A stretch of 15,110 nucleotides of DNA. Source: Rhizobium leguminosarum. Its GTDB lineage: Bacteria; Pseudomonadota; Alphaproteobacteria; Rhizobiales; Rhizobiaceae. The notes below the pieces were generated by a model, which ran no database searches, was not told the origin of the DNA, and saw only the letters and a list, made by a program, of their open reading frames with translations. Shown here in pieces: positions 244 to 15,110 of this stretch. Numbering within the stretch: the stretch's first letter is position 1; each line of letters starts with the position of its first letter. Location of the stretch: the NCBI RefSeq assembly GCF_001652265.1, contig NZ_LWBS01000471.1, positions 1 through 15,110 of the forward strand. The letters are read 5' to 3'. The translations under genes and the position numbers were made by a program.

Positions 244-573
244 GTGGGAGCGGAACACCGGTTACACTTCACATCATCATCATCACTCACGCCGGTTGGG
301 TTTGCTTTGCGAGGCCCGGCATCCCGCAAGATCGCATGGACGCTGGGCGACGCGGCGCGTCTCCTGATCAACGAATGGCCTTGCGATGACGGCGAGGAAT
401 ATGTGGCCGCTATCAAAGCTTGCGTCGACGCATTGAGCGCGAAGATTGCCCCGAAACAATTCCCGGAAGCGCTTCTGCGTGCGGCCAATGAGGCGGGTAT
501 CGCCCGCTCTTTCGCTCGTCCAGCAGGGAATTGGACAGCGACGACCGGATCTGCCTCAAGCGTGCAAAGATAG
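244..573 (+). CDS. DUF982 domain protein
   Basis: The frame encodes a small protein of the DUF982 family, whose function is unknown and which is found mostly in rhizobia and their relatives, often in many copies on symbiotic replicons. The family signature is visible in WTLGDAARLLINEWP, then a helix with A-x-x-x-C-V-D-A-L, then FPEALLRAANEAGI, which is the usual A-A-x-x-A-G-[IV] ending. I chose the GTG at 244 (109 codons) because GAGGGAG lies just upstream and the family is usually about 80-110 residues. An ATG at 157 would give 138 residues with an N-terminus unlike the family. The gene lies just past the IS66 end. The last 20 or so residues after the domain look unstructured. Confidence 0.6.
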   Translation: MGAEHRLHFTSSSSLTPVGFALRGPASRKIAWTLGDAARLLINEWPCDDGEEYVAAIKACVDALSAKIAPKQFPEALLRAANEAGIARSFARPAGNWTATTGSASSVQR

Positions 574-664
574 TCCGATCTTCAAGGGCTATCCGTTTTT
601 CGAAGTCATGTTTGCACCGAGAGCCTGCCCATCTGGCTGGACCCCGACGCGCCACTCCTTATCA

Positions 665-1714: not shown

Positions 1715-1850
1715 ATCGGATTCCTCCTGATTTATGGGCGGCCTCCTGCCGATGACCGCCTTCAAGGGATCGTGAACTCGATGCCCTATATTCGGGGTGT
1801 ATGCCCGCTTGCGCTTCGCATCCACGCACATCTATCAAGCCGCGCACACG

Positions 1851-2057
1851 CTAACTGGGTAGCCTCCTCGCGTCGACAGTAACGGGCAGCCGCCTGTTCT
1901 GCGATAGGTCGGGGAGGGCAATCCGCCATCCATTTTTAAGCAAAATGAAGCCGCCCCATAGGTTTTTGTGCTCAACCGAGATGATCGGTTCCTCAAGATC
2001 TTTCTTGTGAATATAGACCGATAAGCCAACGTCAGTTCTACTGATTGTCACTCTCAT
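1851..2057 (-). CDS. fixU: NifT/FixU family protein
   Basis: This is a 68-residue protein of the NifT/FixU family, small proteins encoded in nif clusters whose precise role in nitrogenase maturation is not settled. The family features are all visible: a basic start MRVTISR, the block KKDLEEPI, the signature LWGGFILLKNGWRIALP and the closing RLPVTVDARRL. The length is normal. The ATG at 2057 is preceded by GAAGGGA at a suitable distance. In many rhizobia fixU follows nifZ and overlaps or abuts it; here the gene upstream is fdxN, 272 bases away, with no nifZ. Confidence 0.85.
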   Translation of the reverse strand: MRVTISRTDVGLSVYIHKKDLEEPIISVEHKNLWGGFILLKNGWRIALPDLSQNRRLPVTVDARRLPS

Positions 2058-2329
2058 GCATGTCCCTTCTCGCTACGGCGGCTTTGAAGATCGAAAGTCG
2101 AGCGTTATCAAAGCCTATTATTTTGGTACGGCATATGCCCAGGCCGACACCTCCGTTATGGCTCTGTCTGAGGTTTGGACGGCATGCGTTCCGGGCCCAC
2201 GACTCTACTCAGGTTGCGCGCATCGCTCACTGGATGTGATATTGATGGGTGCATGAATTTTTAACCGCATGTTCGCCTAGGAGACCACTGATCGCTCGTC
2301 GCATTCTTTGCGCTTTAGTCCGGTGGCGA
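2058..2329. other. Gap between fdxN and fixU, where nifZ would be expected
   Basis: I translated the minus strand of this 272-base gap in my head and found no NifZ-like segment and no frame without stops longer than a few dozen codons. An inverted repeat with 8-base arms (CTGATCGC at 2288-2295, GCGATCAG at 2326-2333) brackets the fdxN stop codon with a 30-base loop. It could fold at the 3' end of the nifB-fdxN transcript but has no T-tract, so I do not call it a terminator. Confidence 0.5.
2122..2139 (+). promoter_or_regulatory. Orphan sigma-54-like -24/-12 sequence on the plus strand
   Basis: TTTGGTACGGCATATGCC has TGGTACG followed by an ATGC, with exactly 10 bases between GG and GC as sigma-54 promoters need; the -12 half (ATGC for TTGC) is imperfect. 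It points away from fixU, toward the 3' end of fdxN, where there is no recognisable plus-strand gene. No TGT-N10-ACA was seen nearby. This may be chance or a relic of a rearranged promoter. Confidence 0.25.
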
Positions 2330-2524
2330 TCAGGCAGGGACGCAGGTCTTCGGCATCGGACACACCGAAGCGCATTGCTGTGTGTCAAACTCACCCTTGC
2401 ACTCGGTACATTTTTTTGAATCCACAACATATCCCTCACCTTTGAAACTGATCGCATCTGAGGGACATTCAAATTCGCAAGCGCCGCACTGGGTGCATTG
2501 GGATACAATGATCTTGAAGGCCAT
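2330..2524 (-). CDS. fdxN: Nif-type 2[4Fe-4S] ferredoxin FdxN
   Basis: This is a 64-residue ferredoxin. The first cluster motif is C10-x2-C13-x2-C16-x3-C20. The second is C39-x2-C42-x8-C51-x3-C55, with the longer middle spacing typical of Nif-associated ferredoxins, and one more Cys at 61. The start [20 protein letters not shown] matches rhizobial FdxN. Family knowledge places it as an electron donor needed in NifB/nitrogenase maturation in rhizobia. It lies 16 bases after the nifB stop, in the same operon, and AGGAG stands 9 bases before the ATG. Confidence 0.95.
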
Positions 2525-2540
2525 GGTTTTAGCTCCTGAC

Positions 2541-4034
2541 TCAATTAGAGGGGCCTAAAGCTGTCGGCATCGCCGGTTTGCCGCCAAACTCGGCGGCGTA
2601 TAGCGCGCCAATCGCAGTCTCGATGTAATCATAGGAAAATGCGTCACTGGCTCGCACGCCAGTTTCTGCCAACCGCTTCTTTGGGCAATCGCCGATTTTG
2701 GAAGAAAGCAGAATGTCGATGCCGTCGAGTGCAACGATAGTGTGATCGAGAGTGGCTTTCTCGCCTAAACCACCGAGGCAATACTGCTCGACCTTGCGGT
2801 GTCCCACCAAGTTGATCCCCTTTGGTGAGACTGCATACACTTGGAATTCTCTTGCCTGACCGAAATGTTCGTTGATCCGGCCGCCACCTTTAGTCGCCAC
2901 GGCAACAGCAAGGGTTCCCCAAGAACCCAGTGACTTGACTGCTTTGTTCGCGTCCAATTTTGCTGCCAGTTGATCCCGTCGCTCATGCTGGACCAGCCTG
3001 CGATAGGCCTCGCGCTTGCTGGTGTCGAATTCAACTTTGGTGGAGATCTGGTCGAGAGCAAACTCTCGCTCGCGATCATTGCCCAGCAAACCGACGGCAT
3101 CGGCCCGACACTGTTGGCAGTGGCGCATAAGCTTAACGTCACCATCGAGACAGTCTTGAAGTGCCTTCAGTTCGAACGGCTCCGGGCAACGCTGCCCCGT
3201 GAGACCGTAATAAGTACCATGCGAAGGCTTGGAAATCAGGGGCACCACATTGTGCATGAACGCCCCGCGGTCTCTGATCCATCGGTTAACTTCCACGAGG
3301 TGCGTGTCATTGACGCCTGGAATCATTACCGAATTGATCTTGGTGAGGATGCCGCGTTTGGTCAGCATTTCCAAACCTAACATTTGGCGCTTGTGAAGGA
3401 TCCTGGCCGCTTCTATGCCAGTGTATCGACGATGCCCGTGGAGTATCCATGGATAGATCTTCGCCCCGACTTCGGGATCCACCATGTTGATAGTGATCGT
3501 CACGTGATCGACGTTCATGTCAGCTAGCTCATCGACATGGTCGGGAAGCGCCAATCCATTGGTAGAAATGCATAGTTTGATGTCAGGAATTTCTCTCGAA
3601 ATTCCCTCAAACGTCGCTACTGTCTTCCTCCAGTCGTAACAAGCGTCGCCCGGTCCGGCGATGCCGATTACGGAAAGCTCCGGTACTTTGCTGGCGACGG
3701 CAAGCACCTTGCGTAGGGCCTGGTCGGGAGTTAGCTTTACTGATGCGACCCCGGGACGGCTTTCGTTGGTGCAATCATATTTGCGATTGCAGTAGTTGCA
3801 CTGGATGTTGCAGGCAGGTGCGACCGCGACATGCATGCGAGCGAAATAGTGATGGGCTTGCTCGGAAAAGCAGGGATGGTCTTTAATTCTCTCCCAGATC
3901 CGCGCATCTATGTCATCCGTCACCGAAAGGCCATAAGACGAAGATGCGCGGCCACCGGGCATAGCGGGAGCCATCGGCGCCCGGTGGGAGGGGGCTCTGC
4001 TGGTCGTCCCGACCTTTATTTCCGGTTCCGACAT
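2541..4034 (-). CDS. nifB: Nitrogenase FeMo-cofactor biosynthesis protein NifB
   Basis: NifB is a radical SAM enzyme that builds NifB-co, the Fe-S-C core of FeMo-cofactor, from two [4Fe-4S] clusters, SAM carbon and sulfur. This copy has 497 residues, normal for rhizobia. Residues 1-50 are a variable leader. The radical SAM triad is C75-x3-C79-x2-C82 ([15 protein letters not shown]), followed by [15 protein letters not shown] (121-135) and [13 protein letters not shown] (155-167). The conserved [10 protein letters not shown] motif is at 306-315. Residues about 374-485 form the NifX-like carrier domain ([21 protein letters not shown], with [10 protein letters not shown] near 446-455). All key residues seem present. 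It is followed by fdxN after 16 bases and preceded by nifA with a 214-base gap that holds a candidate sigma-54 promoter. The ribosome site before the ATG at 4034 is weak (GTGGAA). Confidence 0.96.
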
Positions 4035-4072
4035 CGCACTGTTCCACTGGTGAGGAAAGGTTACAGCTCCAA

Positions 4073-4092
4073 AAGCAAGAGAGATTCCGGTC
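4073..4092 (-). promoter_or_regulatory. Candidate sigma-54 promoter of nifB-fdxN-fixU
   Basis: On the minus strand the sequence CCGGAATCTCTCTTGCTTTT has GG and GC separated by exactly 10 bases and a perfect TTGCT at -12. The -24 half (CGGAAT) is poor against TGGCAC. A start about 12 bases beyond the GC would leave a leader of roughly 30 bases before the nifB ATG. A near-miss activator site, TGT-N10-ACG, lies further upstream near 4167-4182. No better element was found in the 214-base nifA-nifB gap. Confidence 0.45.
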
Positions 4093-4248
4093 GACGAGAC
4101 ATTGATGTTTCAGCGCTTATGTCGCCTTTATCGCCCCTTTTCCCGCTTGCTGCCGGAGATGTTTCGTAGAAATTAAGACAGGATCGCGCCCGACGTCGCT
4201 TCGCCGGCAACCAACCAAAGCTTACGACGTTCTTGATATCGCTCACCT

Positions 4249-5832
4249 TCACTCTTTCACCACATCGATACCAAACCGGCGCAGCGCATAGCCGACCTGT
4301 CGCGGCGTTTTCCCTAGGATACGAGCCGCTTTGGCCTGTACCCAACCAGCCTTCTCCATCGCATTGATCAGCCGATCACGCTCAGTGAGACCCGGTGCCT
4401 CGATTGTGGCTGTGGCACCGCTGGGAGTGCCTGCGTTGGCCCCCAGTCCGCTCGACATTGTATCTCGCGGGTTGAGACTATGCATCGCGTCGTTGCCAAT
4501 ACCGTCGCCGTCGGCTTTCCAGAGGAGCGCCGAAAAACATTGGTCTTGCTGACAGGCAAAATCCGATGAAGTGATGGTATTTGAACTGGCAAGAGTGGCG
4601 GTCCTTTGAACGCAGTTGTCCAGCTCGCGAACATTGCCGGGGAAGGCGCATTTCGACAAAATGTCTATCGCTGACGGCGCGAAGTCGAGATTTCGATCAT
4701 TTGCCTTGTTGAATTGCTCGAGGAACACTTGCGCTAGGAGCGAAATGTCACCGTCGCGCTGCCGAAGTGGCGGCAAAATGATCGGCACCACATTGATCCG
4801 GTAATAGAGGTCGGCTCTGAACTCCCCTCGAAGGACGGCCACTTCAAGGTCCTTGTTGGTGGCGCAGATAACTCGAACGTCTACTTTCAATGTCTTCGTT
4901 CCGCCGAGACGTTCGAATTCGCCTTCCTGCAAGACGCGCAATAACTTCGCCTGGAATTGTGGGGATACATCGCCTATCTCATCAAGCAATAGCGTTCCGC
5001 CATTGGCCAGTTCGAAACGTCCAGCTCGTTGAAGGAGAGCGCCAGTGAAAGCGCCCTTCTCATGGCCAAACAATTCGGATTCCAGAACGGTTTCCGACAG
5101 CGCGGCGCAATTCAACTTAATAAATGCCTTGCTTTTCCGTATCGACAACGCGTGTATTGCTCTTGCAAAGCATTCCTTGCCAGTGCCGCTCTCTCCTCTC
5201 AAGAGCACCGCGGAGTTCGTCGCGGCCACGATCTTGGTGGTAGCTAATACCCTCTTGAGCGCGGGGCTCTCCCCAACGATCCAGTCGATTTTGTCGAGTT
5301 GGGTGGGTTGAGGCTTCGGCTTGATTTTCGGAATCTGTCCTGCTTGTTGTTCCTCGGCGACTGAGCCGCCATCGCTGCACGATTCGCGATAGCGCTGGCA
5401 GGTTAAGCCGATAAGGACGGCAATCATTGCCAGAAGGGTTTCGTCCTGATCTCCGCTTTTCTGCGCGAAATCAATCCACAATGCGCCAATTGCTTTCCGG
5501 TTTACTTTAACGGGGAGAACGGCAGAATTTTTCCCAAAGTGCTTCTCACCGCTAGCGATGACACGATTTATTGCGTCCGCCTGTTCAAGCGTAAGAGAAC
5601 GTGAGCGAACGTCGTGCCCAATGGGAGCCCGTACGTTTATCCAGGGCTCTCCTCCGGAGCCGTGAATCACGATTCCGCCATCGCGCAATAGCAGATGCTC
5701 GACGAGGGCGTTCATGGCAGCCTTCAGCACGTTGTCGAGAGGAAAAGAAGAGATAAGCTCTTTGGATATGTCGTAGAGTATATGGAGCCGCGCCTCTGGT
5801 TTAATCATGCCTACAAACAGGGGAGGGTGCAC
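4249..5832 (-). CDS. nifA: Nitrogen fixation transcriptional activator NifA
   Basis: NifA binds TGT-N10-ACA sites and remodels sigma-54 RNA polymerase to switch on nif and fix genes. This 527-residue protein has an N-terminal GAF-type domain (about 15-150), a linker, and a central AAA+ domain (about 183-405) with Walker A GESGTGKE (213-220), the sigma-54 loop GAFTGA (260-265) and Walker B LLLDEIGD (281-288). It carries the rhizobial oxygen-sensing cysteines C395-x11-C407-x19-C427-x4-C432, and a C-terminal Fis-type helix-turn-helix (about 484-520, AAKAARILGKTPRQVGYALRR region). The start is GTG at 5832, preceded by CAGGG about 10 bases away; an ATG at 5808 (MIKPEARLHIL) is a reasonable alternative matching shorter rhizobial NifA proteins. 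It lies 175 bases after fixX in the same direction, so read-through from fixABCX, giving autoactivation, is likely. Confidence 0.96.
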   Translation of the reverse strand: MHPPLFVGMIKPEARLHILYDISKELISSFPLDNVLKAAMNALVEHLLLRDGGIVIHGSGGEPWINVRAPIGHDVRSRSLTLEQADAINRVIASGEKHFGKNSAVLPVKVNRKAIGALWIDFAQKSGDQDETLLAMIAVLIGLTCQRYRESCSDGGSVAEEQQAGQIPKIKPKPQPTQLDKIDWIVGESPALKRVLATTKIVAATNSAVLLRGESGTGKECFARAIHALSIRKSKAFIKLNCAALSETVLESELFGHEKGAFTGALLQRAGRFELANGGTLLLDEIGDVSPQFQAKLLRVLQEGEFERLGGTKTLKVDVRVICATNKDLEVAVLRGEFRADLYYRINVVPIILPPLRQRDGDISLLAQVFLEQFNKANDRNLDFAPSAIDILSKCAFPGNVRELDNCVQRTATLASSNTITSSDFACQQDQCFSALLWKADGDGIGNDAMHSLNPRDTMSSGLGANAGTPSGATATIEAPGLTERDRLINAMEKAGWVQAKAARILGKTPRQVGYALRRFGIDVVKE

Positions 5833-5855
5833 TGCTTTTTTACCCTGGTGCGCGA

Positions 5856-5873
5856 AATATGCTAACGCATATT
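5856..5873. repeat. Perfect 7-bp inverted repeat just upstream of nifA
   Basis: AATATGC-TAAC-GCATATT is a perfect inverted repeat with a 4-base centre, 24 to 41 bases before the nifA GTG start. It is well placed to be a repressor or activator site over a nifA promoter, or a small hairpin in the nifA leader. It is not a FixK box (TTGAT-N4-ATCAA) and not a NifA site. Confidence 0.6.
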
Positions 5874-5915
5874 CCTAAGTTAAAGATACTTGTTCCCGGC
5901 GGCATAGAAAATTTG

Positions 5916-5927
5916 CCTTTCGAAAGG
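5916..5927. repeat. 12-bp palindrome in the fixX-nifA gap
   Basis: CCTTTCGAAAGG is a perfect 12-base palindrome in the 175-base gap between fixX and nifA. A second palindrome, GTGCATGCAC (5934-5943), follows 6 bases later. Together with 5856-5873 this gives three symmetric sequences upstream of nifA. No -35/-10 or -24/-12 promoter could be assigned with confidence in this gap. Confidence 0.5.
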
Positions 5928-6007
5928 TGATGAGTGCATGCACACTCGATCGCCGCCGTTAATGCAGCTGGATCGGTCGCTGCTATCCCGGCGGAGGTAG
6001 GGACTCC

Positions 6008-6304
6008 TCATCCGAATTTGAAGAGGACCCCGAACCCGCCCCGGGGATAATTCCACTTGATGTCGCCACTAGCTTCGCATAACACTCTGCATGTGCCGCA
6101 TTCCAAGCAGCCATCGGAAACAATCGCCACCTGACCCGTTTCGTTCACCTCGTAGCATTTGGCCGGACAGATTTGCGTCAAGGCGAGCAGGTTCGGGCTT
6201 GGCGACAGATGCGGTCGCACCGTAATGTGCGGACGTCCTGTATCGACGAGGTATCGGTTTTGGTACAGTTTATCCTCAATGCGCTCAATGATGGTCGCCT
6301 TCAT
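6008..6304 (-). CDS. fixX: Ferredoxin-like protein FixX
   Basis: FixX is the ferredoxin-like partner of FixC and corresponds to the Fe-S part of ETF-quinone oxidoreductase. The 98-residue product begins [20 protein letters not shown] and ends [10 protein letters not shown], both typical. Cysteines are at C46 and C50 (ICPAKC) and C66-x2-C69-x2-C72-x3-C76 ([11 protein letters not shown]), which fits one [4Fe-4S] cluster with flanking cysteines. I chose the ATG at 6304, 11 bases past the fixC stop and preceded by AAAGGAAA. The frame is open 7 codons further upstream, but that start would overlap the end of fixC and lacks the family N-terminus. Confidence 0.95.
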
Positions 6305-6315
6305 CGTATTTTCCT

Positions 6316-7623
6316 TTAACGCCAAGATACGGCGGCGCGGACCGCGTCGCTAATCAACCCCCAACGGGATCGTGCATTGATAAAGGAGGCAGCTGTGGCC
6401 TTCTCCCCGTTGACTTTAGGTGCACCGTCGACGCGCACAAAATTTTGCGCCGCCTGAGATATCAGCGTTGGATACATCATGAAAAAATTGTGACTGTCGG
6501 TGTGGAGGAGGCTTGGAAGATCTTTGTGTTTCATCAGGTCTTGCATGACGAACGACTTATCCAGCATGCCCTTATAGAGAGAGAGATTGCGCTTCGTCAT
6601 CAAGCCGCCACGGCTCTTTATCTGAAAGATCGCTTCACCCGCCATGAGGCCCGATGTCATCGCAAGGTTTGATCCCTCCCTATGCACGGCATTGTTTAGT
6701 TGGGCCGCGTCGCCCACGACGACCCACCCGTTGCCAAAGAGCTGCGGGATTGCCTTGAAGCCCCCCTCGGGAATAAGATGCGCGGCGTATTCTTTGATCT
6801 CTGATCCGGCCAGTAATGGTCGGATCGAGGGATGTTGCTTGAAGGCGTCAAGAAGGCGGTACGGATTTTCCATGTTTGCCGCTAAACCGGAAACGAGGCA
6901 GCCGATCCCCACCGAGATTGACTCCTTGTTGGTATAAAGGAAGCCCAGTCCGGCCATTCCGCGTGAGATCGTGCCGCCGGCTTCGATCACACAGCCCTCG
7001 CCATCGGTGAGGCCGAAGCGCTCAGCGATGACCTCTTCCGGCAAGAAATGCATTTCCTTGACAGCGAGTGCCACATGTTCTGGCTTCGGCATGTCGCGTA
7101 AGCCGGCTCGTGTTCCAAGCAGTCCGTTCACGCCCTCGGCAAGGACGACTACGTCCGCGAGGATCACACCGCCCTCTCGGTCCGTGTAAACGCCTATTAC
7201 TCTACCGCTCTGATCTCGAGCGAGTTTCGTCCCTGTCGTTTCACAAAGGACTGTGCCGCCCGCCTCGCGCACCTTGGATGAGAACCACTTGTCAAACTGG
7301 GCGCGGATGATCGTATACCGGTTTGGTTTCAGTTCATTGAAGTCATCAGAGCGATAGTGCACGCCCGTGTGCGACGACTCGTCCATTAGCCAGAATCGTT
7401 GCTCGACCAGATGCCGTTCCAGAGGAGCGTCATCGCGGAAGTTTGGGATAATCGCCTCCAACATGTTGGCGTACAATATAGCCCCTTGAACATTCTTAGA
7501 GCCCGAATGTTCTCCGCGCTCCAGCTGCAGCACTTTTAGACCGCGACTAGCCATCGAATACGCTGCGGCGTTGCCGGACATACCGGCACCAATGACGATC
7601 GCGTCGAACTTACTCTTGGTCAT
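6316..7623 (-). CDS. fixC: Electron-transfer flavoprotein-quinone oxidoreductase FixC
   Basis: FixC is the flavoprotein of the FixABCX complex, which bifurcates electrons from NADH to quinone and to ferredoxin/flavodoxin for nitrogenase. This 435-residue protein is of normal length. It opens with an FAD-binding fold, [19 protein letters not shown] (7-25), with the acidic end of strand 2 in [10 protein letters not shown] (32-41). [20 protein letters not shown] (301-320) is the second FAD contact motif, G-D-A-A. The ATG at 7623 lies inside the end of fixB, with a 14-base overlap, and its ribosome site GAGGAAGG is within fixB. This predicts translational coupling. Confidence 0.96.
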
Positions 7624-8746
7624 TTAGCCTTCCTCGGTCCATACCCTTGATAGCGTTGTGCGGTGGCATTCGCCTGGCGAAAGCTTCTGTCAACGCCGGC
7701 AAGAACTCCACCGCGCAAGCGACAACGCCGATGTGGGCGAAGTCAAAGATCGGAGCGTTCTGGTCGAGGTTGATAGCGACAATCAAATCGGCTCCTTCGA
7801 CGCCAACGCGATGCTGGACCGCGCCAGATATTCCCGCGGCGATATAGAGTTTGGGTCTGATCGTATGGCCGGACTGACCAATTTGTCGATCAGCAGGCAT
7901 CCAGCCTTTTTGGACCAGTGGGCGCGAGCACCCGACTCCCCCGCCGATCGTCGTTGCCAGGTTTCTCAAGTATTGCAGGTTTCCTGCAGCGCCAAGGCCG
8001 AGTCCGCCCCCAACCACGATGTCGGAGTTGGCCAGATCGGATTGCTCTGACCCGCTGTTACAAAGGAACGCGAGGACTTTGGTGACGATCTCCTCCTCAA
8101 CCATCAGGAGTTGATGTTGGATAACGCGCCCAATTGGCTTATCCGCACGTTGCGGCGTCGCCATGACCCTGGACCGCACCGTTGCCATTTGCGGCCGGCT
8201 GTTCAGCGTGTAGATCGTGCACAACAACGACCCGCCGAAAGTTGGCCGCGTCGCTGCGAGTGAACCATCTCCATCAACATCCAGCTCGGTGCAATCAGCC
8301 GTAAGCCCTGTTTGTAAGGTCGTTGCTACAGCACCGGCGAGGTCGCGGCCGAGCGTGGTCGCGCCGAGAAGGAGAATTTCTGGTTTGTGAGTAGTGACCA
8401 GATCCGTCAAAGCCTTGGTGAAGGGTTCGTTTCGATAGTTGGCGAGGAGCGGCGACTCTACCAGATAGGCGATATCAGCTCCGTAAGCGAAGGCCTCTTC
8501 GATCGCAGGCTTAGTCCCCACGCCTTCAGACGAACCGAGGATTACCCCGGCCAGTTGGACACCCAGTTTGTCAGCTAGTCTGCGGCCTTCGCCGAGGAGT
8601 TCAATCGATACGGGATGAACCTTGCCGCGCTCAAGTTCCATGAAGACCCAGACGTGCCGGTGATCTTCGAAACACTTAAGCAGCTTTTTCCCTGAGCTGG
8701 CGCGGCCGACCGCGTTTGCCGGCGTTTCATTTTTTCTAGCGACCAA
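7610..8746 (-). CDS. fixB: Electron-transfer flavoprotein alpha subunit FixB
   Basis: FixB is the EtfA-like subunit of the FixABCX electron-bifurcating complex. It has 378 residues, slightly longer than many homologues because of a variable N-terminus. The N-terminal ETF domain begins at [20 protein letters not shown] (32-51). The C-terminal FAD domain shows VVGGGLGLG (244-252), [20 protein letters not shown] (287-306) followed by SGAVQH, and a final [20 protein letters not shown] (320-339). I take TTG at 8746 as the start because GAGGAG stands 6 bases before it. It starts 17 bases after the fixA stop and overlaps fixC by 14 bases. Confidence 0.95.
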
Positions 8747-8763
8747 AATCTACTCCTCGCTGC

Positions 8764-9615
8764 TCACCGATTCCCATGGGACGTGAGCTTGCGTTCCAAA
8801 ACAGGCTCGCGGGCAAAAATTGCAGCGACCGTGTCGGCCGCGACCTCGGCCAACGTTTTGTCGTTAATGTCCATTTGCATAGCTTTTTCGGCGCGCGGAC
8901 CAGGAGCGAATACTCGCTTCACGACCGTCGGCGATCCCCTTAGGCCGCATTTGGTCAACTCCCCAATGCCGGCGTCAGCGGCCCCCCATTTAAGAACCGG
9001 GCTTCGCGCGGCACGGAAGGCGTCATCGAGAGAGCCCCGGCGGATTGCATTGACACCTTCCAGCACGGTGATGAGACATGGCAACGTGCTCTTCAGCATC
9101 TGCGTGCCGCTCTCCGCATGCCGTTCAACCATGAGCTCGCGCGAAGTGGGATCAATGGAGACAATCTTCGTTACGTAAGTCAGCTGCTGGAGGTTCAGCC
9201 TCTTTGCAATTCCGGGTCCGACCTGGGCCGTGTCGCCGTCAATTGTCTGCTTTCCGGTAAAGACGATATCTGGCGCCCCATAGCTCTCGCCAATCTTCGC
9301 TACTGCTTGAGAAAGAGCATACGAGGTCGCCAGCGTGTCAGATCCAGCAAAGTGGCGGTCGGTGAGAAGCACTGCGCGATCTGCGCCGTGGGTGAGGGCT
9401 TTGCGTAGCGCTTGCTCAGCCATGGGCGGCCCCATCGTGAGAACAGTCACCTCGCCCCCATAGCGGTTACGAACTTGGAGTGCCTCTTCGAGAGCAAACA
9501 GGTCGTAAGGGTTAATGATGGTCGGTACGCCTTGGCGCATGATCGTATTTGTCACCGGGTGGACGCGTATCTGCGCAGAGTCCGGCACTTGTTTGATACA
9601 GACTACAATGTGCAT
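8764..9615 (-). CDS. fixA: Electron-transfer flavoprotein beta subunit FixA
   Basis: FixA is the EtfB-like subunit of FixABCX and carries the bifurcating flavin site together with FixB. The 283-residue protein starts MHIVVCIKQVPDSAQIRVHP and has NPYDLFALEEALQVRNRYGG (36-55), the ETF motif VFTGKQTIDGDTAQVGPGIA, and the ETF-beta signature near VTKIVSI...VERHAESG...LPCLITV. It is complete. The start ATG (9613-9615) is preceded by GGGAG 11 bases upstream. It is the first gene of the fixABCX operon, and a strong sigma-54 promoter lies 52-69 bases before it. A deleted second copy of its 5' part lies at 10616-10766. Confidence 0.96.
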   Translation of the reverse strand: MHIVVCIKQVPDSAQIRVHPVTNTIMRQGVPTIINPYDLFALEEALQVRNRYGGEVTVLTMGPPMAEQALRKALTHGADRAVLLTDRHFAGSDTLATSYALSQAVAKIGESYGAPDIVFTGKQTIDGDTAQVGPGIAKRLNLQQLTYVTKIVSIDPTSRELMVERHAESGTQMLKSTLPCLITVLEGVNAIRRGSLDDAFRAARSPVLKWGAADAGIGELTKCGLRGSPTVVKRVFAPGPRAEKAMQMDINDKTLAEVAADTVAAIFAREPVLERKLTSHGNR

Positions 9616-9699
9616 CGTCGTTTAAGCTCCCAATCGGATTCGGGCTTTAGGGACCCGGCTAACTCTGAGCACTGCTCGTGCCAATAAAGTTGCGCCGCA
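9582..9699 (-). repeat. fixA 5' end and promoter, copy 1 of a direct repeat
   Basis: About 117 bases covering the first dozen fixA codons, leader and -24/-12 element recur nearly unchanged at about 10732-10848 in the same orientation. Both read, on the plus strand, from CCGGCACTTGTTTGATACAG through GTTAAGCTCCCAATCGGATT to GTTGCGCCG. Homology stops at about 9699, where the TlpA-like remnant begins, so this is a recombination junction. Confidence 0.85.
9667..9684 (-). promoter_or_regulatory. Sigma-54 promoter of fixABCX
   Basis: On the minus strand TTGGCACGAGCAGTGCTC gives TGGCACG at -24 and GTGCT at -12, with GG-N10-GC spacing. The predicted start is near 9657, about 42 bases before the fixA ATG. 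I found no TGT-N10-ACA in the roughly 100 bases upstream, which are the remnant end of the TlpA-like gene. The two other copies of this promoter do have one. FixA expression may therefore depend partly on the upstream copy at 10817-10913. Confidence 0.85.
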
Positions 9700-9805
9700 A
9701 GAAGATGCTGTCCGGGTTCAGGTTGATGCCCTCCTCAATGGCCGAGAGCGCCGCCTTCCAATTCTTAATCTCAATCGCCGCCGAGACTCGATCATGAAAC
9801 AATCT
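9697..9805 (-). pseudogene. Frameshifted, cut-off C-terminal continuation of the TlpA-like gene
   Basis: In the frame next to that of the TlpA-like gene the minus strand encodes IEIKNWKAALSAIEEGINLN followed by PDSIFLRRN. This resembles the start of the helical, TPR-like tail that follows the thioredoxin domain in longer rhizobial homologues of about 400 residues, as I recall them. It is out of frame by one base with the gene before it, the change falling near 9795-9810. It stops abruptly where the fixA promoter repeat begins. The rest of the tail is absent. Confidence 0.55.
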
Positions 9806-10337
9806 GCGCAGCATAAGTCTCGCCTTCAGCAATCCGCTCCTCTTCGGCATTCTTTGCTTCCGCGCTGGCGCGCCAGCTGCCGTCAATCACTTTTGGCAAA
9901 ACGTCCTCGATCATAAGCAGATCACCGATAAAGGCGATGCTACCGTCTCCGTCGACAACGAACGTCTTTGGAACGTGGAACGACAAGCTGGCTTTGAGCC
10001 AATCCTCATCCATTTCGCCTGAGTGGTCGAATCCCATCCGAATGTTCGTATTCGGGAGCGATTTGGTTATGGACGCGTCCACCCGGGCTCGGGCGTCGTC
10101 AGCCGTTGCAGCTTTCTCACTTGCTGCGATCCCAATGAACTCAACTCCCGTGTCGCTGAACTTCTCGTGCAACTTCGCCAGGTCGGATAGCTCCGGCCCG
10201 CAATAACCGCAGGTAGTCGAAAAGAACTCAACGATGTATATCTTGCCGAGCTGGAAGTGGGAAAGCGGTTCGCCGCGCAGCCAGTTCTGCACTTTGATAG
10301 ACGGGGCTGGAGAGCCGAGATTTAAACTAGAAGTCAC
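9792..10337 (-). CDS. TlpA-like thioredoxin-fold protein, C-terminally truncated
   Basis: The 181-residue product has a redoxin/thioredoxin domain at about 5-150: GSPAPSIKVQNWLRGEPLS, then YIVEFFSTTCGYCGPELSDL with active-site Cys43-x2-Cys46, GVEFIGIAAS, and VPKTFVVDGDGSIAFIGD with the cis-proline region. No signal peptide or membrane segment is visible, so it may act in the cytoplasm. Family knowledge suggests a thiol-disulfide or peroxide-handling role; no substrate can be given. I chose GTG at 10337 with GGGGAAC upstream, because the frame before it (to 10400) reads as unrelated basic sequence that overlaps another ORF. The gene ends early through a frameshift, followed by 100 bases of tail remnant. 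It lies upstream of fixA in the same direction and overlaps the end of the 62-codon ORF by 11 bases. Confidence 0.7.
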   Translation of the reverse strand: MTSSLNLGSPAPSIKVQNWLRGEPLSHFQLGKIYIVEFFSTTCGYCGPELSDLAKLHEKFSDTGVEFIGIAASEKAATADDARARVDASITKSLPNTNIRMGFDHSGEMDEDWLKASLSFHVPKTFVVDGDGSIAFIGDLLMIEDVLPKVIDGSWRASAEAKNAEEERIAEGETYAAQIVS

Positions 10338-10515
10338 GTCTTGTTCCCCACAGTGTTTTATCCGGCGTTTCGCGCGCCAGGAGTGAGCTTGTCCTGCCAA
10401 GTATCAGGTCGATTTGTTTTGATATTGAAAGGCCATCGCGGCGAACGTTCCATCGGTTGGACAAAAGACGTTTGTGATCTCGTCTTGTGAAATGGCTTCT
10501 GCGGGTGCGTGCCAT
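10327..10515 (-). CDS. Small basic protein of unknown function, coupled to the TlpA-like gene
   Basis: A 62-codon ORF begins MARTRRSHFTRRDHKRLLSN and ends DKTLWGTRRDF. I do not recognise it. It has an almost ideal ribosome site, AAGGAGGAATTTGCA before the ATG at 10515. Its TAG stop overlaps the GTG start of the TlpA-like gene by 11 bases, a classic coupling arrangement. It is rich in Arg and Lys at the N-terminus, with no cysteines and no membrane segment. It could be a real small gene in the NifA-driven operon, or a leader peptide that delivers ribosomes to the next gene. It sits between the deleted fixA copy and the TlpA-like gene, downstream of the left NifA promoter. Confidence 0.5.
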   Translation of the reverse strand: MARTRRSHFTRRDHKRLLSNRWNVRRDGLSISKQIDLILGRTSSLLARETPDKTLWGTRRDF

Positions 10516-10615
10516 TGCAAATTCCTCCTTCTGAGAGCATGACGATAGTCACCGTCGTGACGGGAAGGTGCCGAGGTCTAAAGCAGATGGAGCAGGAGGC
10601 CATTCCAGAGCTCCT

Positions 10616-10766
10616 CGCCATGTAAGTCAATTGCTGGAGGTTCGGCCTCCTTCCGATGCCGGTCAGGCCGCGGCCGTGTCACCGTCAGTTGTCGTCTGCT
10701 TCCCGACGAAGACGATACCAGGCGTCCGAAGCCCGGCACTTGTTTGATACAGACCACGATGTGCAT
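10616..10766 (-). pseudogene. Internally deleted duplicate of fixA
   Basis: The first 11 codons (MHIVVCIKQVP) are the same as fixA, with the same upstream region. They are then joined directly to a segment matching fixA codons about 113-150 (the GIVFVGKQT...DGDTA stretch, and CTCCAGCA-TTGACTTAC on the minus strand, compare 9172-9280). About 100 codons are missing between. Frameshifts in the remaining part (a TGA after DGDTA in the fixA frame) make it non-coding. It is a scar of a fixA duplication and travels with promoter copy 2. Confidence 0.8.
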
Positions 10767-10848
10767 GGGCGTTAAGCTCCCAATCGGATTTGGGCTTTAG
10801 GGACCCGGCTTACTCTGAGCACTACTCGTGCCAATCAGGTTGCGCCGG
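10732..10848 (-). repeat. fixA 5' end and promoter, copy 2 of a direct repeat
   Basis: This is the partner of 9582-9699, with the same orientation and only scattered differences by eye. Unlike copy 1 it continues upstream into the activator site and into the left arm of the large inverted repeat, so it is the more complete copy of the promoter region. Recombination between the two direct copies would delete the deleted fixA remnant, the 62-codon ORF and the TlpA-like gene. Confidence 0.85.
10817..10834 (-). promoter_or_regulatory. Sigma-54 promoter, left copy, reading toward the fixA remnant, 62-codon ORF and TlpA-like gene
   Basis: The minus strand reads TTGGCACGAGTAGTGCTC: TGGCACG at -24, GTGCT at -12, with GG-N10-GC spacing. 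A matching activator site lies 64 bases upstream (10898-10913). The first intact downstream genes are the 62-codon ORF and the TlpA-like gene, and the transcript could continue into fixABCX. Confidence 0.85.
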
Positions 10849-10897
10849 TAAGCTTTCGAGATTGCACATGTTTCGTTGTCGCTATGCGGAGGGGTTT

Positions 10898-10913
10898 TGT
10901 AGGGTTGCCGACA
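10898..10913 (-). promoter_or_regulatory. NifA upstream activator site, left copy
   Basis: TGTCGGCAACCCTACA on the minus strand is a perfect TGT-N10-ACA site. It lies 64 bases upstream of the -24 element, within the usual range for DNA-loop activation by NifA. The same site is conserved in the right arm with one internal change. Confidence 0.8.
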
Positions 10914-11017
10914 TGTCGTGTCGCAATCCGCCCCGATCACCACCGCGAACGGAGGGGCGGCTCGATGGGCTTCAGGTCGGATAAGTCCGTGATAGCTGCG
11001 CCACGAGCCGGAAGATT

Positions 11018-11293
11018 TCAACGCCGAATAATACGCCTGGAGATAGCACGGGGATTGAAGTTCTGGTGCGGTGGGCGTGTATCGAGCTTCGGTTTACCAT
11101 TGACAATCTGACTAGCGATACCGTACGCGATCAGAACCAGAGCGATCGAGAAAATAACGCTGCGGCGCCAAGTAAGGTTGGACAAGCGTTTTAGCTGATT
11201 TTGCGGCGTCACCAGGATCATTGCCAGAAGCGTGGAGAAACCCTTGCTGGATATATCAATCGAAAGCCGTCCATAAACGCTGCTGCAGCGCAT
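11018..11293 (-). CDS. Unidentified C-terminal gene fragment with one membrane segment
   Basis: The minus strand has an open frame of about 91 codons ending at 11018. It includes a hydrophobic stretch SVIFSIALVLIAYGIAS that could be a membrane helix, then QIVNGKPKLDT. The right arm of the inverted repeat encodes, in the matching frame, YGVASQIINGTPKLET. Third-position and conservative changes between the two suggest this was once coding. I see no convincing start or ribosome site and do not recognise the family. A neighbouring minus frame (11256-11531) may be its upstream part after a frameshift. It is probably a relic. Confidence 0.3.
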   Translation of the reverse strand: MRCSSVYGRLSIDISSKGFSTLLAMILVTPQNQLKRLSNLTWRRSVIFSIALVLIAYGIASQIVNGKPKLDTRPPHQNFNPRAISRRIIRR

Positions 11294-12695
11294 CGAGCTC
11301 TTGGCTTTTCTCCGCCTCGATCGTTACATCAACGCCGTTCTGATCGGTTGGGCGAGCTACCGTATGACCAAATGAACAAGCCGAAGCCACATGATCTGAC
11401 GCGACTTGCTGCATTGAGCCAGCGCCAGTTGTGGCCTTTAGACGCATGACAACAATTTGCGACGTTGTCTTCACCTTTGTCAGATCAGCGACAAAGGCTA
11501 CCTCCTCGATTGCGCGGCTTTTCCGCGTCAACCGGCGCTCGAGACATGGCGACCTATGGGAGAAGATTACTTTGTGGGTGGCGGCTGAGCGCGGGGCAGG
11601 CTGGTGTAGTTCGTAAGGACAAGCGGATCAGGCGGTTGGAAAAAATGGTCGCGGTTTCACGCGGGCTCCTGTGGCCGCAAGTTCGAGAAGGTCGATCCTG
11701 GGCAATTTATCTCGCAGTGAAGGACCTTGAGAAGATGGAACAGGAAGCCGACGCCATTTGTGCATATGTCCAAGACAAGGACAGCACCTTGCGCAGCGCA
11801 GCCCACGTTCATGCGCTGTCGCGGCATTCGGAGGCTATGGAGGCGCGCGGCACGCGGCAGATCTTTACCCACTAGGTGTGGCGAATGCCCGCTCGCCGGG
11901 CGGTGGCCGACCGCAGTGGGAGGACCGCTGCATCCGACGTCGCCAGACAACGACTCCAGTTCAACCAAGTGAAGGGCGGAAAGCATGACGGCTCTGGATG
12001 AGGACAAAATCTGCGCTATCGGGAGATCATTCTCCGCTTCAGATCTGGCAATTTTGGGTTGGAAACCTGCAATCGCCAAGGGCCGCGTCACTCCTTGGCC
12101 CGCTGCGGAAGAGAAGCACTTGAACGCTTTTCGCGGGGTCATTGAGCTTGGACGATACATAGAGTTCACAACCCGATTGTGGGAAGGCACAGGACACCGG
12201 TATGCACCCGACGGCAAAGCAAAGGTTAGTGCATTTCCGAATTCCAGAGCGCCCCGCTTCAAGCGCAGACAGGCTTTCGTGCGAATCAAGGAGGTAACGG
12301 ACATGCGTGATGGCATTTTCGCTAAACCCAAAAAACTGACCTTTTAGCGCTAGCGCAGCAGTCGGCGCAGGGTGCTCTTCGACAAACGGGCAAGAAGCAT
12401 ATCGGCGAGGGGCCACGGTACGGGCCGTATCGGCAAATCCAGGCGGAAGCCCGAAGCATAAGCTGGTAACGGCGTGCATCTTCTCGGTTCTCCCATGACT
12501 TTGCCGCCGGCACTTTCCTCTCGCCAATCGCAAAGGCCATCGTCTCCGACGGGGCATCTTTGCTGACGGACTTTTAGTCGTTCCTGACCGAAATGGGAAA
12601 CCTGACCTTCAGCGCCAACCGCAAGACGCCACGTTACAAGGCGGTGACATGCACCTATCAGAATTGCCTTTATCGACAACGGCGCCGGGGGATAT
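11137..12695. other. Interior of the inverted repeat: no recognised gene
   Basis: About 1.56 kb lies between the arms. Open frames exist on both strands: plus 11546-11875 (a helix-rich stretch with KRIRRLEKMVAV and LEKMEQEADAICAYVQ), plus 11985-12347, and minus 11657-12331. None matches a family I know. Base composition and codon choice do not clearly favour one strand. It contains no transposase I can recognise. It may hold decayed genes left between two promoter copies. Confidence 0.4.
11985..12347 (+). CDS. Hypothetical protein, possible gene between the inverted repeats
   Basis: A 120-codon plus-strand frame starts MTALDEDKICAIGRSFSASD and ends FAKPKKLTF. The ATG is preceded by GAAGGGCGGAAAGC, an acceptable ribosome site. 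The product is mixed alpha/basic with a Lys/Arg-rich C-terminal third and no membrane segment or cysteine motif. I do not recognise it. A long minus-strand frame overlaps it entirely, so one of the two must be a shadow. I favour this strand for its ribosome site and ordinary amino-acid make-up, but with low certainty. Confidence 0.35.
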   Translation: MTALDEDKICAIGRSFSASDLAILGWKPAIAKGRVTPWPAAEEKHLNAFRGVIELGRYIEFTTRLWEGTGHRYAPDGKAKVSAFPNSRAPRFKRRQAFVRIKEVTDMRDGIFAKPKKLTF

Positions 12696-12914
12696 TTCGT
12701 TTATGGTGTCGCTAGTCAGATTATCAACGGTACACCGAAGCTCGAAACACAGCGGCGGCCACCAGAACTTCAGTCCCCATGGTATGTCTCGGGGGATTGT
12801 TTGGCGTTGAAATCTGCCGGCAGGTATCGCAGCCATCATGACTTATCCGACCTGAAGCCTATTGGACCTCCCCCTCCATCGCGGTGGTGATCGGGGGCAG
12901 ATTGCGACATGACA

Positions 12915-12930
12915 TGTCGGCAACTCTACA
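12915..12930 (+). promoter_or_regulatory. NifA upstream activator site, right copy
   Basis: TGTCGGCAACTCTACA is a perfect TGT-N10-ACA site on the plus strand. It differs from the left copy by one base in the spacer. It lies 65 bases upstream of the -24 element at 12994. Confidence 0.8.
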
Positions 12931-12993
12931 AAACCCCTCCGCATAGCGACAACGAAACAGGTGCAATCTCGAAGGCTTACCGGCGCAACCTGA

Positions 12994-13011
12994 TTGGTAC
13001 GAGTAGTGCTC
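12994..13011 (+). promoter_or_regulatory. Sigma-54 promoter, right copy, reading into the thiamine-diphosphate enzyme gene
   Basis: TTGGTACGAGTAGTGCTC has TGGTACG at -24 and GTGCT at -12 with GG-N10-GC spacing. The only change from the left copy is C to T in the -24 box (GGCAC to GGTAC), which is tolerated in known sigma-54 promoters. The predicted start near 13021 leaves a leader of about 57 bases before the ATG at 13078. A second half-copy of the -24 region (ACCTGATTGGCACGA, 13051-13065) lies in that leader without a -12 partner. Confidence 0.8.
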
Positions 13012-13077
13012 AGAGTTAGCCGGGTCGCTAAAGCCCGATCGTGGTCCCCGACCTGATTGGCACGAAGGGAGACCGAC

Positions 13078-14743
13078 ATGGCAGGAATGCGAAAAAAGAT
13101 CACCCCGAGCCGTGAGGGCGAACAGCGCGAGGTCAAGGGGTCCGACCTCTTTGTCCGGGCGCTTGAAAACGAGGGGGTCACGGTCATCTTCTACATCCGG
13201 CGAGGAAACCATCGACCTCGTGGAGTCGCTGCGCAACTCGACGATCAAGCTCGTGCCGACCCACACCGAGTGGGCCGCGGCCCTCATGGCCGCCAACTGG
13301 GGTCGGCGCACCGGCCGCACTGGCATCTGCATCGCCACCTGCGGTCCGGGCGTGCTCAACTTCCCGAACGGCGCGGAATATGCCCGGCTCAACGGTATGC
13401 CTTTGGTGCTGATCGCCGGCCAGAAGGCGATCAAGAACCGCCGCCAGGCGGGTTTTCAGAGGTCCGACGCCGTCGAGGTGATGAAGCCTGTGACCAAGCG
13501 CGCAATACAAATCGCATCGGCGGAGATCCCGCCGACGGTCAGTGAGGCATTCCGCATCACCCAGGAGGGAAAGAAGGGGCCAGTGTATATTGAACTTCCG
13601 GAAGATATCGCGGCCGAAAAATGCGAGAAGGAGGTTGCGCTGATTGCACGGCACAAGCGCGAACTGCCGAAAGCAAACGATGCGGCCCTCGATCGCGCCG
13701 CGGCGCGCATCCCCGCAGCCAAACGTCCACTTCTGATGTTCGGAGCAGCCGCCCCGCGTCGCGTCGCCTCGTGTCCCGGTTTGATAGCGGATATGGCTCA
13801 ATTTGTGATCCGCATCGGCATTCCGTTCTTTACCACTCAAATGGGCAAGGGTGCCGTGTCCGAAGACTCCCATCTCTACATGGGCACGGCGGCGCTATCC
13901 GAAGGCGACTATGTCCACGAGTCCATCGAGCAGGCCGACCTAGTCATCGCGATCGGCCATGACACGACCGAAAAACCGCCCTTCCTTATGGGGCCTAAGG
14001 GACCGGAGGTCATTCGCATCGGAGATCAGTCGCCGCCAGTCGAGCAGGTCTACTTCCCGCAATCCGAGGTCATCGGCGACATCGGCCCTTCGCTCAAGTC
14101 GCTGGCGGATCGCCTTGAGGGCAAGCTGCCAAATGCCGGCGCATTGCTGCCGCTGCGCGAGAAGATCCTCTCCCGGATGTCCAACGGCGCCGATGAAGAA
14201 CGTTGGCCGGTCACGCCGCAGCGACTGGCGCACGCCGTGCGCAAGGTCATGCCGGAAAACGGCATCGTTGCGCTCGACAACGGCTTGTACAAGCTCTCGT
14301 TCGCCCGCAACTACCAGACCTATGTCCCCAATACGCTGCTGCTCAACAACGAGCTGGCGACCATGGGCGCGGGACTGCCGTCGGCGATTGTTGCCGCGAT
14401 GCTCTCTCCCGAGCGCCGCGTCATGGCGGTCTGCGGCGATAAGGGCTTCATGATGACCAGCCAGGAACTGGAGACGGCCGTCCGCCTCAAGCTCAACCTG
14501 GTCGTGCTCATCGTGGAGGACGGCGGCTACGGCATGATCCGCCATAAGCAGGCCGCCCGCGGTTTCCCGGATTTCGGCAACACCGTCGGCAATCCGGATT
14601 TCGTGAAATTGGCCGAAGCCTATGGGGTTAAGGGCACGCGCGTCGAAGCGCTGGACGATCTTGTGCCAGCGCTGGAAGCCGCTTTCGAAGGCGGCGGGGT
14701 GCATGTGGTCGTAGTGCCGATCGATGATTCAAGGAACAAGTGA
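13078..14743 (+). pseudogene. Acetolactate-synthase-like thiamine-diphosphate enzyme, frameshifted near the N-terminus
   Basis: The start is ATG 13078 with GAAGGGAG before it. The first frame reads VKGSDLFVRALENEGVTVIF, the usual opening of this family. The continuation ETIDLVESLRNSTIKLVPTH is in another frame; the break falls at about 13196-13205, where the expected I-P-G-E-E is short by two bases (or has one extra). The second frame then runs to 14743 and covers the diphosphate-binding Glu (HTEWAA), the central domain and the C-terminal binding domain. There the usual GDG is GDKGF and the usual Asn in the later motif is Glu (VEDGGYGM), so cofactor binding may differ. TGA 14741-14743 also looks premature, since VLTDELQ follows in frame, as in homologues. 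The substrate is unknown. A sequencing error could explain the frameshift. Confidence 0.75.
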
Positions 14744-14889
14744 GTGCTCACCGACGAGCTGCAGCTCGCGCAAAGCGTAACCGGGATAAACCGCCCTCAG
14801 GAGCCCAGGAGGTTGACAGCAATGATCATCTTTTCAGAGCGGACGGCAGGCCCTGCCGCCCGAGAGAGGCAAACAGAGGGACCAAGCAG

Positions 14890-15110
14890 ATGAAGCCATT
14901 TACTTTCCAAACCCCGTCCAACATCATTATCGAGGCAGGCGCGTCCAGCAAGATCGCCGACTTCTTCAAGGGCTACAAGGCCGCCCATGTGCTGCTCGTC
15001 ACCGACGAGGGCGTACGGGCGGCCGGGCTGACGCGCAATGCGGAAGCGGCGATTGCCGAAGCCGGCATCGCGCTCACCGTGTTCGACGGCGTGGTCGTCG
15101 ACGCGCCGTC
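14890..15110 (+). CDS. Iron-containing alcohol dehydrogenase, N-terminal part
   Basis: An open frame starts at ATG 14890 (MKPFTFQTPSNIIIEAGASS) and runs off the window. F-x-x-P-x-x-I-x-x-x-x-G at the start, then AAHVLLVTDEGVRAAGL, AEAAIAEAGIALTVFDGVV and VDAPS, are the nucleotide-binding N-terminal half of the iron-containing alcohol dehydrogenase family (NAD(P)-dependent, group III). The metal ligands lie beyond the window. GAGGGA precedes the ATG. It lies 146 bases after the stop of the thiamine-diphosphate gene; if that stop is a mutation, the original frame would end at a TGA overlapping this ATG (ATGA). The two genes probably form one operon that makes and reduces a carbonyl compound, which is inference. 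Confidence 0.8.
   Translation, partial: MKPFTFQTPSNIIIEAGASSKIADFFKGYKAAHVLLVTDEGVRAAGLTRNAEAAIAEAGIALTVFDGVVVDAP

Follow-up and report, generated by a model that had tools for sequence, protein, structure and literature searches.

A copied nif/fix promoter before the head of a putative poly-4-hydroxybutyrate operon in Rhizobium leguminosarum

The stretch of DNA analysed here (the window, 15,110 bases) is an entire contig, C471, of a 472-contig draft assembly of Rhizobium leguminosarum. Its minus strand carries genes for a methyltransferase, nifB, nifA, fixXCBA (fixX assigned by position) and a redoxin gene, and its plus strand carries a gene for a thiamine-diphosphate (ThDP) enzyme followed by the start of a gene for an iron-containing alcohol dehydrogenase. 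The top-ranked plasmid record for the window DNA is R. lentis BLR27 p4 (93.8% over 298-12092). The element of interest lies just upstream of the ThDP gene (12697-13077) and is a NifA/sigma-54-type promoter module within an inverted copy of a nif/fix promoter region; both the module and the inverted copy are real. The dehydrogenase matches GhbD, the first enzyme of the bacteroid poly-4-hydroxybutyrate operon ghbD-phaE-phaC-ghbT, and the window would thus hold the head of such an operon behind a captured promoter.

The promoter comprises an upstream activating sequence (UAS; TGTCGGCAACTCTACA, TGT-N10-ACA) at 12915-12930 on the plus strand, found by pattern search and alignment, and a -24/-12 core (TGGTACGAGTAGTGC) at 12995-13009 on the same strand, found by pattern search, with GG-N10-GC spacing and one C to T change relative to the other aligned copies. 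The -24 GG and -12 GC are 10 bases apart and the UAS lies ~100 nt upstream of the start, as in NifA/sigma-54 promoters; by hand count, the UAS centre is ~98 nt from the predicted start near 13021. In loose searches neither element stands out on its own: TGT-N10-ACA occurs three times in the window (1.93 expected; 64 of 200 shuffles reach the same count) and the core with up to two mismatches 26 times (20.8 expected). The exact core TGGYACG-N5-TGC is found four times against 0.07 expected, and the joined module UAS-N45..95-core twice (12915-13009 and the copy preceding fixW) against none in 400 dinucleotide shuffles, both patterns having been drawn up after the sites had been seen. The complete, correctly spaced NifA-type promoter claimed by the first-pass annotation is therefore present. 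It lies within the inverted copy of the fixA/fixW-operon promoter region (12697-13036, plus strand), which is 86% identical over 336 nt to 10772-11140. Identity is highest over 143 nt (94%, 12894-13036 vs 10792-10934), and the inverted repeat extends to 12697/11130 at 80-85%. The remaining leader, past the junction (13037-13077, plus strand), is of non-fixA origin. A 14-nt direct repeat, CCTGATTGGYACGA, occurs at 12989 and 13052, either side of the promoter junction, and is perhaps a trace of recombination.

The copy had been described as a near-identical inverted duplicate of the fixA promoter, of which the inverted duplication stands and the source does not. The nearest relative is the region 10772-11140 (minus strand; UAS 10898-10913, core 10819-10833), which precedes a fixA fragment and fixW, whereas the core immediately before fixA (9640-9697, minus strand, without a perfect UAS) matches only over 58 nt (91%). 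The fixA fragment, a degraded 5' end left by promoter duplication and recognized through repeat families (10612-10773, minus strand), is followed at the fixW position by the redoxin gene (9792-10400, minus strand; AhpC-TSA/Redoxin by domain search). FixA itself (8764-9615, minus strand) was assigned by a profile match and is 100% identical over 276 residues to a FixA-family protein annotated in R. lentis. NifA, the presumed activator, is encoded at 4249-5832 on the minus strand (TIGR01817, 621 bits, cut-off 529). In R. johnstonii 3841 the same 300-nt UAS-bearing region directly precedes fixA, whereas in the window a second promoter copy, the degraded fixA fragment and the redoxin gene intervene between UAS and fixA. 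R. leguminosarum UPM791 has a NifA-autoregulated promoter before orf71-orf79-fixW-orf5-fixABCX-nifA (PMC3538637; this and the other papers given by PMC number are cited for the passages covered). The copied promoter is taken to be that of the fixW-fixABCX-nifA operon.

Both genes behind the promoter are imperfect in the window. The domains of the initial gene calls were confirmed (PF02775/PF02776/PF00205, the N, M and C domains of ThDP enzymes, and PF00465 for the dehydrogenase). The ThDP gene (13078-14743, plus strand; PRK08322 family), however, is frame-shifted by a 2-nt deletion at 13196/7 relative to its relatives, and the dehydrogenase gene is cut by the contig end. A mechanical open reading frame (ORF) from a GTG (13112-14743, 543 aa) covers the ThDP gene and contains the three domains but starts out of frame for ~28 N-terminal residues, and the GDG cofactor motif reads GDK. 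The deletion could be a draft-assembly error; the GDK is independent of it. Comparing the window ThDP gene with that of R. hidalgonense gives a ratio of nonsynonymous to synonymous substitution rates (dN/dS) of 0.50, and comparing it with two uninterrupted Rhizobium copies gives 0.49-0.54; pairs from Bradyrhizobium, Methylobacterium and Bosea lie at 0.03-0.16. However, the ratio between those two uninterrupted copies, L090 and L094, is itself 0.55, so that relaxation of the ThDP gene is wider than its breakage.

The dehydrogenase gene is represented by its first ~73 codons (14890-15110, plus strand). Over 71 readable residues it is 82% identical to a full-length relative whose gene order is ThDP enzyme, iron dehydrogenase and PhaE; in other plasmids the operon extends to PhaC and/or to a CoA-transferase or acs. 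Elsewhere in the same assembly, ghbD codons 343-387 open two contigs, C61 and C56 (read in sense). On C61 the ghbD end is followed by phaE, phaC (93% to 3841) and a ghbT remnant, and on C56 by a nifH-promoter copy and then acs, so two ghbD copies are likely in this genome. R. lentis, which has the same fixW-promoter locus, carries promoter, ThDP remnant, ghbD end, phaE and phaC in that order, and from this order we infer that C471 joins C61. Its phaE-phaC is uninterrupted and close behind the promoter, an arrangement left by deletion. The apparent payload behind the promoter is ghbD-phaE-phaC. Matches to ghbD (E <= 1e-120) occur in at least 10 of 148 genomes of the genus, at least 1 of 394 of the family and at least 1 of 397 of the order, these tallies being lower bounds with 12 or 4 candidates scored per genome. 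Intact GhbD relatives score 257 and 247 bits against the NCBIfam 4-hydroxybutyrate dehydrogenase model, which has a 500-bit cut-off. Contig C9 of the same genome holds attKLM-like genes, with a succinate semialdehyde dehydrogenase (SSADH; TIGR01780) and AttM above NCBIfam cut-offs and an iron-containing alcohol dehydrogenase between them. The nifH promoter region of 3841 has seven matches in this genome as well (on C28, C418, C457, C31, C13, C56 and C62), one of which, that on C457, precedes a phaC-like fragment.

Relatives were drawn from 80 ThDP loci among the matches listed, all of which were searched by tblastn; 63 entered ORF clustering, the other 17 having yielded no ThDP ORF from the ORF picker. 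Nineteen of 234 plasmid records matching the ThDP-dehydrogenase region (paralogs included) were examined, and the tallies below refer to fetched loci. L087, L088, L089, L126, L127, L129 and L133 were left out of the promoter tally and the tree as repeats or near-copies, the tree also excluded L138 as too short, and two pairs of near-copies identical in ThDP (L092/L132 and L090/L006) were kept. Upstream of the ThDP gene, nif/fix-promoter homology is present in 18 of 28 fetched loci, 3 of them fixA-type (the window, R. hidalgonense L086 and R. lentis L138) and 15 nifH-type, and 10 have neither. The fixA-type promoter-ThDP joint recurs in R. hidalgonense, R. indicum, R. leguminosarum A1 and R. 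lentis. The search of other rhizobial genomes that the first-pass annotation had proposed thus recovered the arrangement, a NifA/sigma-54-type promoter copied before a non-nif carbon-metabolism operon, and it also found nifH-type copies before the same operon elsewhere; by sequence, the placement is not a one-off. A 5' fragment of nifH is often retained in the nifH-type copies (3841, R. sullae, Ta9k, TA1 and, by eye, S. meliloti ml21), and Vaf10 shows a fusion of the NifH start with the ThDP gene (by eye). Rhizobium copies resemble Rhizobium nifH and Sinorhizobium copies Ensifer nifH. In the nifH-type copies ghbD is intact in all 15, and uninterrupted phaE and phaC then follow in 12 of the 15 within the stretches read. 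Of the loci that lack a nif promoter upstream, six (L090, L091, L099, L123, L125 and L130) have a nifH-promoter copy downstream of ghbD, which precedes ghbT in both loci checked (L090 and L123).

Mapped on a 37-row tree of the ThDP gene, the promoter labels require six changes and promoter presence or absence four, counts that give no direction of change. The fixA-type and the Rhizobium nifH-type copies each fall on one strongly supported branch, and the Sinorhizobium and clover nifH-type copies need two changes each. With three different source promoters involved, at least three captures are implied, and the same operon would have captured nitrogenase promoters several times. In L086 (upstream of 6001) the fixA-type promoter is immediately preceded by 71 nt that match, at 72%, the UAS portion of the 3841 nifH promoter; judged by sequence, this copy may combine two captured promoters as a mosaic. 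Upstream of ThDP in L090, L094, L096-L099 and L104, inspection by eye showed a recurrent leader, TTGAC...GTGACG...AACCATCATGATG-like and sometimes in tandem, which could be another promoter or a repeat element. The idea that nifH-type copies with TTGA at -12 are dead was dropped, as an A at this position is described for the nifH promoters of R. leguminosarum, R. etli and M. loti (PMC3538637). The nifH of 3841 reads TTGT at -12.

The ThDP damage seen in the window recurs at other plasmid-type loci. Among 29 plasmid-type loci, i.e., the 28 that include the window and R. lentis L138 plus G138, which was added to the ThDP/ghbD frame tally and not to the upstream tally, the ThDP gene is frame-shifted, interrupted or truncated in 23 and uninterrupted in six (L006, L090, L094, L102, L103 and L105). 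Ten further compared rows beyond the 28 all keep the frame. By comparison, ghbD is intact in 24 of 28 readable loci, the exceptions being L006, L086, L138 and G138 (L134/L152), the last of which has both genes frame-shifted. The ThDP dN/dS exceeds that of ghbD in 11 of the 12 symbiotic pairs that could be compared at length for both genes (e.g., 0.83 vs 0.45 and 0.81 vs 0.25; the exception is L090/L094, 0.55 vs 0.56) and is below it in five of five Bradyrhizobium, Methylobacterium and Bosea pairs, although these pairs share loci and hence are not independent. No association of ThDP loss with nif promoters is claimed, as the gene is uninterrupted in 2 of 18 copies with a nif/fix promoter and in 4 of the 10 that lack one, these copies being related to one another.

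What the ThDP enzyme originally did is suggested by gene neighbourhoods elsewhere. Four Bradyrhizobium loci (L013, L017, L019 and L020) and Bosea have acnA-idh, ThDP, ghbD, phaE, phaC and ghbT in order; ThDP, ghbD, phaE, phaC and ghbT occur together in 12 of the 80 listed loci, and L102 and L131 retain idh remnants ahead of the ThDP gene. Because operons elsewhere begin acnA-idh-ThDP, it is fairly likely that the enzyme is a 2-oxoglutarate decarboxylase supplying succinate semialdehyde. In 20 of the 63 loci that entered clustering, and in the genome of the window too, an aldehyde dehydrogenase comes after the ThDP paralog; this dehydrogenase matches SSADH-type models and reaches no NCBIfam cut-off. 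Against the assignment, which draws on gene context alone, NCBIfam calls the ThDP enzyme an acetolactate synthase above cut-off, and the nearest solved structures are acetolactate synthases.

Taken together, we consider it probable that a duplicated NifA/sigma-54 promoter has captured a poly-4-hydroxybutyrate operon on a plasmid, once ordered ThDP gene-ghbD-phaE-phaC-ghbT, and that the window contains its head. The sequence shows that the UAS-bearing fixABCX-nifA promoter was duplicated with a fixA fragment before fixW and recopied in inverted orientation ~2 kb away, where the copy directly adjoins the ThDP gene, an arrangement shared with two other lineages. NifA and RpoN would then turn the operon on in micro-oxic bacteroids. 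By homology with S. meliloti, GhbD would reduce succinate semialdehyde to 4-hydroxybutyrate and PhaE/PhaC would polymerise its CoA ester, providing an electron and carbon sink; the predicted reaction, succinate semialdehyde to 4-hydroxybutyrate for polymer, is more specific than first guessed. The ThDP enzyme, judged by its neighbours, may have been the ancestral source of succinate semialdehyde, a 2-oxoglutarate decarboxylase fed by acnA-idh, which would be dispensable in bacteroids and is now decaying. The first-pass interpretation is thus partly supported, with corrections to the source promoter, to the first gene, which is broken, and to the payload, which is known. For the bacteroid expression it expected, activity is reported for related copies, namely HM006 ghb/pha (PMC12636752) and 3841 PhaE-PhaC2 (PMC5852556).

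Several observations weigh against a working unit at this locus. The promoter block (the third copy) is 6.3% diverged from R. lentis, compared with 3.5% for the ThDP remnant (p 0.22 vs the promoter block) and 4.7% (12226-12696) and 17.0% (12697-12893) for the flanks (flank p 0.50 vs the promoter block); against R. hidalgonense the block is 6.3% and the ThDP gene 6.7% diverged, and the fixW promoter copy shows only 2.2% in the same test. As the block is no less divergent than the broken ThDP gene, no purifying selection is visible on this copy, and special conservation of the block was rejected, its divergence not being below that of the ThDP remnant or flank. The C to T change lies within the -24 element. 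The spaced core is present in 15 of 18 nif/fix-type copies, and only 10 of 18 also have a perfect UAS 40-140 nt upstream; the copies without the core are HM006 L097 (spacing 9), LMB1 L105 (-24 GG lost) and R. indicum L131 (leader only). Both HM006 pha copies (L097 ~3903 and L150) have a -24/-12 spacing of 9 rather than 10 nt, and its bacteroid expression may therefore come from another promoter. In the fixA-type lineages examined the ThDP gene is always broken or mostly deleted, and R. hidalgonense and R. lentis have lost ghbD as well. Finally, the middle of ghbD is absent from the assembly, so that the C471-C61 join rests on synteny, and the assembly shows only one ghbD start and a single operon-type ThDP gene against two ghbD ends.

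The lack of visible constraint on the promoter copy, the -24 change and the HM006 spacing leave some weight for an account in which repeat recombination placed the promoter copy before an already failing operon with no current role in the strain. The ThDP frameshift, the GDK motif and the loss of ghbD in both other fixA-type lineages fit this account, which we nevertheless regard as unlikely: all three fixA-type lineages retain the UAS together with a correctly spaced core, R. lentis has its phaE-phaC reading frames uninterrupted and a short way behind the promoter, and the nifH-type copies preserve ghbD without exception. Much less probable is the pathway that had been proposed initially, an enzyme pair for carbonyl metabolism in which the ThDP enzyme and the dehydrogenase carry out a bacteroid condensation or decarboxylation followed by a reduction. 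The two genes are adjacent behind one promoter, the Bradyrhizobium, Methylobacterium and Bosea loci compared keep both uninterrupted (dN/dS 0.03-0.21), and the open GTG ORF of 543 aa covers the window ThDP gene. However, that ORF swaps ~28 N-terminal residues for out-of-frame sequence, the remaining fixA-type copies examined also have a broken ThDP gene, as do 23 of 29 copies overall, and the HM006 operon works (PMC12636752) though its ThDP gene reads frame-shifted.

The capture of a poly-4-hydroxybutyrate operon, our preferred explanation of the window, may be one case of something wider, for which the balance of evidence is even. The rhizobial-plasmid operon would have independently captured Rhizobium fixA, Rhizobium nifH and Sinorhizobium nifH promoters, and perhaps more, each capture making a free-living storage pathway a bacteroid trait. 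The ancestral citrate-to-polymer route (acnA-idh-2-oxoglutarate decarboxylase-ghbD-phaE-phaC-ghbT) would have shed its first steps after capture because bacteroids obtain succinate semialdehyde otherwise. If this is true, several separate promoter duplications would explain nodule expression of the operon, recurrent selection for a bacteroid polymer or electron sink would be suggested, and both NifA dependence and loss of the phenotype once the promoter copy is removed are predicted. The matter bears on symbiosis, as the operon, through ghbD, can collapse alfalfa nitrogen fixation in S. meliloti (PMC12636752). The neighbourhood evidence also offers 2-oxoglutarate as a testable source of succinate semialdehyde, unlike the proposed gamma-aminobutyric acid (GABA) route. 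What is new is that one and the same polymer operon is coupled to nitrogenase promoters repeatedly; among the papers in the library searched and the passages covered, no title or opening of an abstract places a ghb/pha operon behind copied nif/fix promoters.

Further features were noted in and around the loci. Between nifB and the methyltransferase gene, TGGTACGGCATATGC at 2124-2138 (plus strand) resembles a -24/-12 site, and none of the window's three TGT-N10-ACA sites is nearby; the methyltransferase (665-1831, minus strand), near nifB, has an Rv2258c-like winged-helix domain. In R. leguminosarum OyaliB p3 (L139, 3775-4860) there is a further fixA-promoter copy with a fixA fragment, and downstream of the fragment, by eye, a nifH-like promoter and then an aminotransferase/biotin-carboxylase cluster, an operon that may be another capturer of nif/fix promoters. 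Genes for a Nif11-type peptide precursor or for maturation of ribosomally synthesised and post-translationally modified peptides (RiPPs) adjoin the ghb operon in L092 (1-4894), L095 (1-3895) and L096 and L098 (1-2700), and the Nif11/RiPP genes of 3841 and R. sullae have a divergent copy of the nifH promoter opposite them.

Among known systems, the R. leguminosarum UPM791 fixW-fixABCX-nifA promoter (PMC3538637) is like the source of the copied promoter, by gene order only; it drives nif/fix genes, whereas the window copy precedes a ThDP-ghbD operon. The ThDP enzyme recalls the cyanobacterial bypass of 2-oxoglutarate decarboxylase (KGD) and SSADH (PMC10418658) in that it is followed by an aldehyde dehydrogenase in the 20 relatives mentioned above, although here it is paired with a reductase (GhbD) and a polymer synthase, and the likeness is one of gene context. 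By hand count, the GDG..D..Y spacing of MaKGD (D435/D462/Y465; PMC10418658) is the same in the ThDP enzyme, a feature that is not discriminating.

The closest parallel is the pair of pSymA operons, pha-1 and pha-2, of S. meliloti HM006, described in a 2025 preprint (PMC12636752), which have homologous ghbD-phaE-phaC genes preceded by a damaged ThDP gene; between HM006 and R. leguminosarum Tp73_4, ghbD identity is 78%. There GhbD reduces succinate semialdehyde to gamma-hydroxybutyrate, the ghb/pha cluster is highly expressed in bacteroids, which contain polymer granules, and ghbD expression suffices for collapse of the symbiosis with alfalfa (PMC12636752). The HM006 upstream region is a Sinorhizobium nifH-like copy with 9-nt spacing, whereas the window has a Rhizobium fixA copy. 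It is described as two pseudogenes and "presumably, the promoter"; the passages covered name neither the ThDP gene nor an origin from nif/fix promoters, and a term search of that text did not find "acetolactate" and found "NIFA" solely as a funder (PMC12636752). R. johnstonii 3841 has the same operon with a damaged ThDP gene on its symbiotic plasmid (ghbD-phaE-phaC2 of pRL10, pRL100103-105). PhaE-PhaC2 is active in its bacteroids (PMC5852556), pRL100103-105 correlate with gamma-hydroxybutyrate use across 72 isolates (PMC4313370), and mature pea bacteroids of RlvA34 lack polyhydroxybutyrate granules (PMC6421345). The 3841 operon differs from that of the window in lying behind a nifH promoter and a nifH 5' fragment. 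The mos (rhizopine) locus of S. meliloti, which lies behind a duplicated nifH promoter, is likewise a metabolic operon put in the symbiotic regulon, but with other genes, another product and a nifH rather than a fixA promoter.

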